DNA from: Pseudomonadota bacterium
GTDB lineage: Bacteria > Desulfobacterota > Syntrophorhabdia > Syntrophorhabdales > Syntrophorhabdaceae
Assembly: GCA_026388255.1 (NCBI GenBank)
Contig: JAPLKC010000036.1
Span: 66,716-113,354, forward strand
Direction of reading: 5' to 3'
DNA length: 46,639 nucleotides
Within the stretch, counting starts at the first letter, position 1. Each line of letters starts with the position of its first letter. The translations under genes and the position numbers were made by a program. Below are positions 25,920-27,898 of the stretch, one piece after another. Below the pieces are notes generated by a model. The model saw only the letters and a program-made list of their open reading frames with translations, ran no database searches and was not told the origin of the DNA.

Positions 25920-27371
25920 TTAGGGTACTTCGCTTAGCGGAATGCCGAGGGCGTCCGCAACCCCCTTGCCATAGGCAGGATCAGCTTTCAGGCAGTTCCC
26001 TATGTGGCGGGTTTTAACCTCCATCGGAGCATCCCCGATAGCACGGGCTGTGTTTTCAAATAGCACCTTTTGCTGATCGGCGCTCATGAGGCGGAAGAGT
26101 TTGCCCGGCTGAGAGTAATAGTCTTCATCTGTACGATGGTTCCAATGATCGGCAGCACCTTCGAGACTGAGGGGCGGTTCGGCAAAATCAGGTTGCTGCT
26201 GCCATTCGCCGTAACTGTTGGGCTCATAGCCGAGCGTGCTGCCGTAATTGCCGTCAACCCGCATGGCGCCGTCGCGGTGGTAGCTGTGGAAAGGACAGCG
26301 TGAGGCATTGACCGGTATCAGGTGGTGGTTTACACCAAGGCGGTAGCGCTGGGCATCTCCATAGGAGAAGAGCCTTCCCTGGAGCATTTTGTCAGGTGAG
26401 AAACCGATGCCGGGCACAACATTGGTAGGGTTGAAAGCTGCCTGTTCGACCTCGGCAAAATAGTTTTCCGGATTGCGGTTCAGTTCGAGGATGCCAACCT
26501 CGATAAGAGGATAATCCTTGTGGAACCAGACTTTTGTGAGGTCAAAAGGATTGTACGGGCAGGTTGCAGCTTCTTTCTCAGGCATTATCTGGACGAAGAA
26601 TGTCCACTTCGGGGAATCGCCCTTTTCAATGCTCTCATAGAGATCACGCTGGTTACTTTCCCGGTCTTTGCCGACGATTGCTTCAGCCTCCTGGTCGGTG
26701 ATGTTTTTAATACCCTGCTGGGTTTTAAGATGGAATTTAACCCAGTACCGTTCTTTGTTGGCATTAATGAAGCTGAAGGTATGACTGCCAAAGCCGTGCA
26801 TATGGCGATAGGAGCATGGGATGCCGCGGTCGCTCATGACAATAGTAACCTGGTGCAATGCTTCGGGCAGCGATGTCCAGAAATCCCAGTTGTTCTTGGC
26901 ACTGCGCATATTGGTGCGGGGGTCCCGTTTGACGGCATGGTTGAGATCGGGGAACTTGAGAGGGTCGCGCAGAAAAAATACCGGCGTGTTGTTCCCCACC
27001 AGATCCCAGTTTCCTTCCTCAGTATAGAACTTCATCGCAAAACCACGGATGTCGCGCTCTGCGTCAGCAGCACCGCGCTCCCCGGCTACAGTTGAAAAAC
27101 GGAGGAAGCACTCGGTCTTTTTTCCTATTTCCGAAAATATTTTTGCTTTAGTATATTTTGTAATATCATGGGTGACGGTAAATGTGCCGTAAGCCCCGGA
27201 ACCCTTGGCATGCATACGCCGCTCAGGTATGACCTCCCGGTCAAAGCTTGCAAGTTTCTCCAGGAACCAGACATCCTGAAGTAATGCAGGGCCGCGTGGT
27301 CCGGCAGTCATAATGTTCTGGTTGTCGGCCACAGGAGCGCCGGCGTTATTGGTCAGTTTCTTCTTCTCCAT
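25920..27371 (-). CDS. katA: Haem catalase (small-subunit, clade 3 type)
   Basis: 483 aa from ATG 27371, which has AAGGAGG and correct spacing. An upstream in-frame ATG (27434) would add 21 residues overlapping the regulator gene. Catalytic His54 in [12 protein letters not shown], the distal Asn in VGNNTPVFF and the haem-ligand Tyr motif [12 protein letters not shown] are all present. Length and features match small-subunit catalases. It lies 22 bases behind the Fur-type regulator, so the pair forms an oxidative-stress operon ending in the strong terminator. Catalase in an anaerobe fits tolerance to air exposure. Confidence 0.95.
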
Positions 27372-27393: not shown

Positions 27394-27831
27394 TTATTTA
27401 CCAGTTTTTCTGCTGCACTCTTTACAAAGTCCATAGTACTCGAAACGCATCTTATGCGCTTTAAAGCCCGTTGAAGTCTCTATCGATGACGGAGACATTA
27501 ATATATCCCCGTCAAAGTTTTCAATTTTTCCACACTCTATACAGATGAGATCGACATGGTCGGTCATGTTGCTTTCGTATCTGTTTTCCTGCTCGTAAAA
27601 CTCAAGCTCTTTGATCAGCCCTTCCTCTTTGAGCAACTTCAGCGTGTAATAGACTGTTGACATGCTGATATCAGGTATATTTTCTCTGGCTTTCAGAAAA
27701 ACTGTACGCGCCCCCGGATGACTCCGGTCACCGGAGAGAATATCAATTATTGCAAGACGTTGAGGAGTCAGTTTAACCCCTTTTTTTCTGAGGGCACTCA
27801 GGATTCTTGTTTTTATATCCTCTGAATTAAT
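27394..27831 (-). CDS. Fur/PerR-family metalloregulator with apparent ATT start
   Basis: 145 aa if translation starts at ATT 27829-27831. The frame runs from a TAG at 27847-27849 with no ATG, GTG or TTG before ATG 27661-27663, and that ATG lies inside the DNA-binding domain. The ATT has GGGAG 6 bases upstream. From it the full fold appears: [51 protein letters not shown] and the second CKEC of the structural zinc site. It is the first gene of the regulator-katA operon, so a peroxide-sensing PerR role is likely. Alternatives: a sequence error hiding a normal start, or CTG 27799-27801. Confidence 0.8.
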
Positions 27832-27851
27832 TAAAAACTCCCTTCTCTAAT

Positions 27852-27866
27852 CAGGAATGATTCCTA
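27852..27866 (-). promoter_or_regulatory. Fur/PerR-type operator
   Basis: The dyad AGGAAT-G-ATTCCT (27853-27865) has the xxAATnATTxx core of Fur-superfamily boxes and lies over the expected transcription start of the regulator-katA operon, consistent with autorepression. Confidence 0.65.
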
Positions 27867-27870
27867 ACTA

Positions 27871-27898
27871 AGTATACTACAGATAAAATATTTGTCAA
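27871..27898 (-). promoter_or_regulatory. Promoter of regulator-katA operon
   Basis: On the minus strand TTGACA (27893-27898) and TATACT (27871-27876) are 16 bases apart. Confidence 0.75.

Follow-up and report, generated by a model that had tools for sequence, protein, structure and literature searches.

A conserved non-canonical start codon in a Fur/PerR-type regulator gene beside a catalase gene

A regulator gene in the window, the whole stretch of 46,639 nucleotides analysed here, raises the question of where its translation begins and what its start codon might do. An earlier note, made from the letters alone, had claimed that the frame of this Fur/PerR-type protein offers no ordinary start ahead of the middle of the DNA-binding domain, that an ATT 6 bases behind GGGAG gives the right N-terminus, and that standard gene calling would truncate the product to about 89 aa. 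We examined the frame, its relatives and its initiation signals (Table 1).

The reading frame and its protein

The frame runs on the minus strand from 27846 to 27394 (150 codons), directly after TAG 27849-27847, and ends with TAA 27396-27394. As the note had stated, it is empty of ATG, GTG and TTG from the upstream stop to ATG 27663; none of the three codons occurs in any of the frames from the -10 box to the ATT either. The spacing was also described correctly, as GGGAG (27842-27838) ends 6 nt before ATT 27831-27829. The first ordinary in-frame start, ATG 27663 (MSTVYYTL..., 89 aa), lies within the recognition-helix region of the DNA-binding domain, and ordinary start rules would indeed cut the protein to this length, with the loss of most of the winged helix.

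Read from the ATT, an intact Fur-family protein results. The Pfam FUR profile (PF01475) is matched completely, from position 1 to 121 of 121, over residues 21-138 of the 150-aa frame, and its score of 99.9 bits, compared with a curated cut-off of 23.1, places the protein in the Fur superfamily. Among solved structures, the closest was Bacillus subtilis PerR. An AlphaFold model from codon 2 on places the first helix at residues 2-15, and its winged helix is intact.

Table 1. Features of the regulator locus in the window
Feature	Positions	Strand	Evidence or remark
-35 box TTGACA of the regulator promoter	27893..27898	-	sequence; TTGAC(A) precedes the operator in most relatives too
-10 box TATACT	27871..27876	-	sequence; spacer 16 nt
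Palindromic operator AGGAATCATTCCT, presumed PerR-type autoregulatory site	27853..27865	.	sole exact copy in the genome, at the regulator gene itself; D. vulgaris PerR core; conserved before relatives' starts
In-frame stop TAG	27847..27849	-	sequence; upstream of start
Shine-Dalgarno AAGGGAG	27838..27844	-	6 nt before ATT; anti-SD duplex -7.9 kcal/mol
ATT start codon (codon -21 relative to TPQR)	27829..27831	-	homologous codon AUH in 19 loci, ATG/GTG in three
Fur/PerR-type regulator, 145 aa from ATT to stop	27394..27831	-	PF01475 E 1.4e-28; phmmer 2fe3 PerR 2e-26; model mean pLDDT 87.8
Catalase, AAGGAGG (27383-27377) and ATG start	25920..27371	-	PF00199 E 1.1e-191; 22 nt after regulator stop

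The four structural zinc cysteines that mark PerR (equivalents of C96, C99, C136 and C139) were conserved in all rows of the alignment. At the regulatory metal site (H37, D85, H91, H93 and D104 in B. subtilis PerR numbering), the window's regulator has H37, E85, H91, D93 and N104, and most relatives with the same type of start have H37, D85, H91, N93 and D104. D93 and N104 are common to only a few close relatives; given E85, D93 and N104, the metal or peroxide chemistry of the window's regulator may differ from that of PerR. We file the protein as Fur family, PerR-like, rather than as a named PerR equivalog, because the best NCBIfam match, NF052545, reached 112 bits against a cut-off of 180. 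The predicted roles, sensing of peroxide and repression of peroxide genes, are suggested by the gene neighbourhood and the operator.

Start codons among relatives

Genome searches and an alignment query yielded 84 rows long enough for a tree; a single-sequence search of the genome contigs returned no relatives, whereas the alignment query did find them. Codons were numbered from the T of the conserved TPQR motif, which makes the window's ATT codon -21. One genome of the window's species is in the sample, as an assembly of 147 contigs.

Codon -21 was ATC, ATA or ATT (AUH), with a Shine-Dalgarno sequence (SD) ahead, in 19 distinct loci. Twelve of them form one clade of rows from the Geobacterales, to which Oryzomonas japonica belongs (ATC in ten, ATA and ATT in one each). 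L114 (ATC) also came from the search of that order but lies outside the clade. The other six are four rows from Nitrospirota, all with ATA, and two ATT loci, the window and L090, which is more distant. Group membership required an anti-SD duplex of -5 kcal/mol or better, which excluded only L071 (-4.3); its ATT at -21 was set aside as chance, since an ATG follows at -18 and its SD is only the operator. In 14 of the 19 loci, no ATG, GTG or TTG was present from the in-frame stop (or codon -45) to codon -13. The earlier note would have yielded to relatives with a longer N-terminus, and no such conserved extension was found: in four Oryzomonas-type loci (L104, L105, L106 and L044, the isolate O. 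japonica Red96), a stop lies just three codons 5' of the ATC. Another in-frame canonical codon occurs near the AUH in four loci, as ATG at -19 in L107, TTG at -25 in L037, and ATG at -29 inside the operator in L108 and L109. All 14 rows without a canonical start had AUH at -21, compared with 6 of the 70 rows with one (Fisher p = 1.2e-11, a value that overstates independence among these related rows).

The homologous codon is canonical in L007 (ATG), L050 (ATG) and L125 (GTG), and the remaining canonical relatives start mainly at codons -17 to -26. The AUH trait is not universal, because L007, from the same family of genomes as the window, has ATG at -21, and L003, a same-genus homologue of another subfamily (41% identical), has a TTG start. 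All 13 Fur-family paralogue loci from the same family of genomes (L002, L004, L022-L032) have an ordinary start ahead of TPQR. In the Oryzomonas set, variation in codons -20 to -2 falls mainly on third positions, and that in the three codons 5' of the start on all positions (small numbers in both cases). The only other recurrent AUH, an Ile codon at -16, stands at too great a distance from the SD, and relatives whose ATG start lies further upstream have it as well. A frameshift start from an out-of-frame ATG between SD and AUH was rejected, as such an ATG is present in L038 and L043 and absent from the other AUH members. The leaders of these two loci read GGAGGATATGCCATA and GGGAGAATGCCATC, respectively, at this place, and the ORF formed in L038 has 2 codons.

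The tree was built from 46 rows with sequences from codon -13 on, so that the start codon itself was not used. The AUH state needs four changes on it. The 12 Geobacterales rows form a clade (support 100/98), and the window groups with four canonical relatives (100/98). The simplest reading, with several weak forks, is one gain near the base of a 40-row clade followed by about three returns to canonical starts; L090, on a long branch, may be a second origin. The arrangement of operator, SD and AUH is thus probably an inherited property of the subfamily. A further consequence of the AUH starts is that the annotation of these regulators is probably wrong in many genomes, with the protein either truncated or given a false extension, and their DNA-binding half would be hidden from regulon studies.

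Initiation signals and their possible role

The best anti-SD duplexes at AUH starts ranged from -5.6 to -11.6 kcal/mol (median -7.3), while those at the relatives' canonical starts were mostly -4 to 0, and the SDs of the AUH group were stronger (Mann-Whitney p 6e-10, a value likewise overstated by relatedness of the rows). The duplex is weak at canonical starts because there the start codon follows the operator at a short distance. Two designs occur in the family, an operator followed by SD and AUH, or an operator followed by AUG/UUG with hardly any SD or none, and both look like weak initiation signals. In L040, L041, L046-L048, L053, L054 and other canonical relatives, the ATG directly follows the operator and an SD cannot be recognised; it looks as though equally weak initiation were reached by either route, an AUG that lacks an SD or an AUH that has one.

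In the AUH loci, an operator of the AGGAATNATTCCT type sits about 22 nt 5' of the start. Measured from the operator's centre, the distance to the AUH is 20-24 nt in 16 of the 17 loci in which a site was found, and 28 nt in the window; the core of the operator is that of the Desulfovibrio vulgaris PerR sites in Table 7 of Rodionov et al. (PMC545781). A regulon search with the operator in the window's genome gave 12 sites at one mismatch or fewer versus 15 for the reversed control, and hence no signal apart from the exact copy at the regulator gene. A search for structure in the leader RNA found nothing beyond chance (z 0.31).

Comparison with relatives locates the start and shows that it is conserved: the window's regulator starts at ATT 27831-27829, because AUH is conserved at the homologous codon, the SDs are stronger than those of canonical relatives, and a AGGAATNATTCCT-type operator stands upstream. 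The note's proposal that this is the correct N-terminus therefore holds, relatives having either AUH or ATG/GTG at this codon in the comparison that it had suggested.

Wherever a neighbouring gene could be read with confidence, AUH loci always adjoined peroxide-defence genes, namely catalase, KatG, rubrerythrin, cytochrome-c-peroxidase-like or ferritin-like genes; neighbours were identified by eye from translations, with a profile scan for the window's catalase only. This catalase is probably the operon partner of the regulator on the same mRNA. Its frame holds an earlier ATG, 27434 (minus strand), which overlaps the end of the regulator, and the SD points to 27371; automatic annotation that chose 27434 may lengthen the catalase by 21 aa. 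In L117, a 65-aa ORF 56 nt 3' of the regulator looks like the C-terminal metal-binding half of a Fur protein encoded on its own.

We consider it probable, from the sequences compared, that the gene encodes a peroxide repressor translated from AUU, and that the inherited operator-SD-AUH arrangement is a weak start that keeps the repressor low relative to catalase. The operator overlaps the regulator's own promoter and is followed by a short leader, a good SD and the AUH codon. The regulator would repress its own promoter, and the downstream gene along with it, and the AUH codon would hold translation of the repressor low. A low repressor-to-catalase ratio would follow, with catalase translated from AUG behind AAGGAGG, probably on the same mRNA. 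Most likely, then, the conserved weak start serves to keep an autoregulated peroxide repressor scarce.

A rival account accepts the same start and denies it a regulatory purpose: drift removed the AUG, a stronger SD makes up for the loss, and total expression stays at about the level of the canonical relatives. Indeed, a strong SD at AUH could restore normal output and so speak against low expression. The stronger SDs of the AUH members agree with this, stronger SDs that offset weaker starts are a general prokaryotic trend (PMC5622118), and the tree shows several returns to AUG or GUG. However, AUH persists in all 12 Geobacterales rows amid changes between ATC, ATA and ATT, though a single base would restore ATG, and canonical members keep initiation weak by lacking an SD. 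We regard drift as possible, and the less likely explanation of the start.

More tentatively, the start might act like that of infC, with the concentration or state of initiation factor IF3 actively setting the amount of repressor beyond the effect of a weak start. The gene of another oxidative-stress regulator, sigR, starts with GTC, and IF3 represses initiation there (PMC5472188). The window genome's own infC (L036, G000:C83, about 1741-1739, minus strand) has no ATG, GTG or TTG at its N-terminus, and AGGAGGTGAGCTTTT-ATA, behind AGGAGG, looks like its ATA start; the window's cell is therefore expected to initiate at AUH, which also favours the AUU start proposed above. Against control by IF3, work in Streptomyces failed to show that oxidative stress raises translation from GTC (PMC5472188). 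Should IF3 or ribosome status set repressor synthesis at AUH, an idea that we hold doubtful, translational stress or altered IF3 would lower the repressor and derepress catalase, rubrerythrin or KatG. A similarly speculative extension is that such a control layer would span the peroxide-repressor family of Geobacterales, Nitrospirota and relatives.

It is very improbable that the ATT arose in the window's assembly as a base error or stands for a strain variant of ATG. ATT is one base from ATG, the genome is in 147 contigs, and L007 has ATG there, but an error would have to strike the one codon that is also altered in relatives, and independent assemblies show ATC, ATA or ATT at this codon. Since the isolate genome shares AUH with several of them, an error is not needed to explain the ATT and was rejected as sole cause. 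That AUH recurs at the same codon, behind a strong SD, across at least two phyla speaks for conservation of a weak start rather than for a slip in sequencing. Decay of the gene, or production of only the 89-aa C-terminal part from 27663, the first ordinary in-frame start, is more improbable still, as the model shows that most of the winged helix would go, the N-terminal 20 codons vary like coding sequence in relatives, and all four structural cysteines, H37 and H91 are intact.

Comparison with known systems

Few bacterial genes with a conserved AUH start appear in the literature examined: infC, pcnB, ccpN and cvfC1, together with sigR and its GTC. The infC gene (IF3, AUU/AUA) resembles the regulator in its conserved AUH behind a strong SD, also in the window's genome (ATA), but it encodes the discriminating factor itself, whereas the regulator is a DNA-binding repressor. 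The ccpN (AUA) and cvfC1 (AUU) genes of Staphylococcus aureus and B. subtilis likewise combine a conserved AUH with an extended SD and a start that limits output, and ccpN encodes a transcriptional repressor; they belong to another protein family and phylum, and their starts were demonstrated by ribosome profiling and reporters (PMC13009471). In S. aureus reporters, output from AUA and AUU starts with extended SDs was about 10% of that from AUG, with ccpN reaching at most 30% in rich medium (PMC13009471).

Streptomyces sigR shares with the regulator a role in oxidative stress, a conserved non-canonical start and a strong SD; it differs in having GTC rather than AUH, in encoding a sigma factor rather than a repressor, and in its demonstrated repression by IF3, and replacement of its start deregulates the oxidative response (PMC5472188). 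The AUU start of Escherichia coli pcnB also limits expression (Binns and Masters 2002, as cited in PMC13009471), but pcnB is an enzyme gene and has no operator-coupled design. The delta-proteobacterial PerR regulators resemble the window in that a Fur/PerR gene lies beside peroxide genes and the operator is like the D. vulgaris ahpC site; the passages on PerR and start codons there mention no non-canonical starts (PMC545781). A Fur/PerR gene with a non-canonical start was not found in the literature searched, whose coverage leaves out most subscription journals.

Conserved non-canonical starts are thus an already known phenomenon, to which the Fur/PerR example is a new addition. It adds a regulator family in which the AUH trait appears ancient and reaches across at least two phyla. 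Members of the subfamily that naturally carry AUG or GUG at codon -21 offer a ready comparison for the purpose of such starts.
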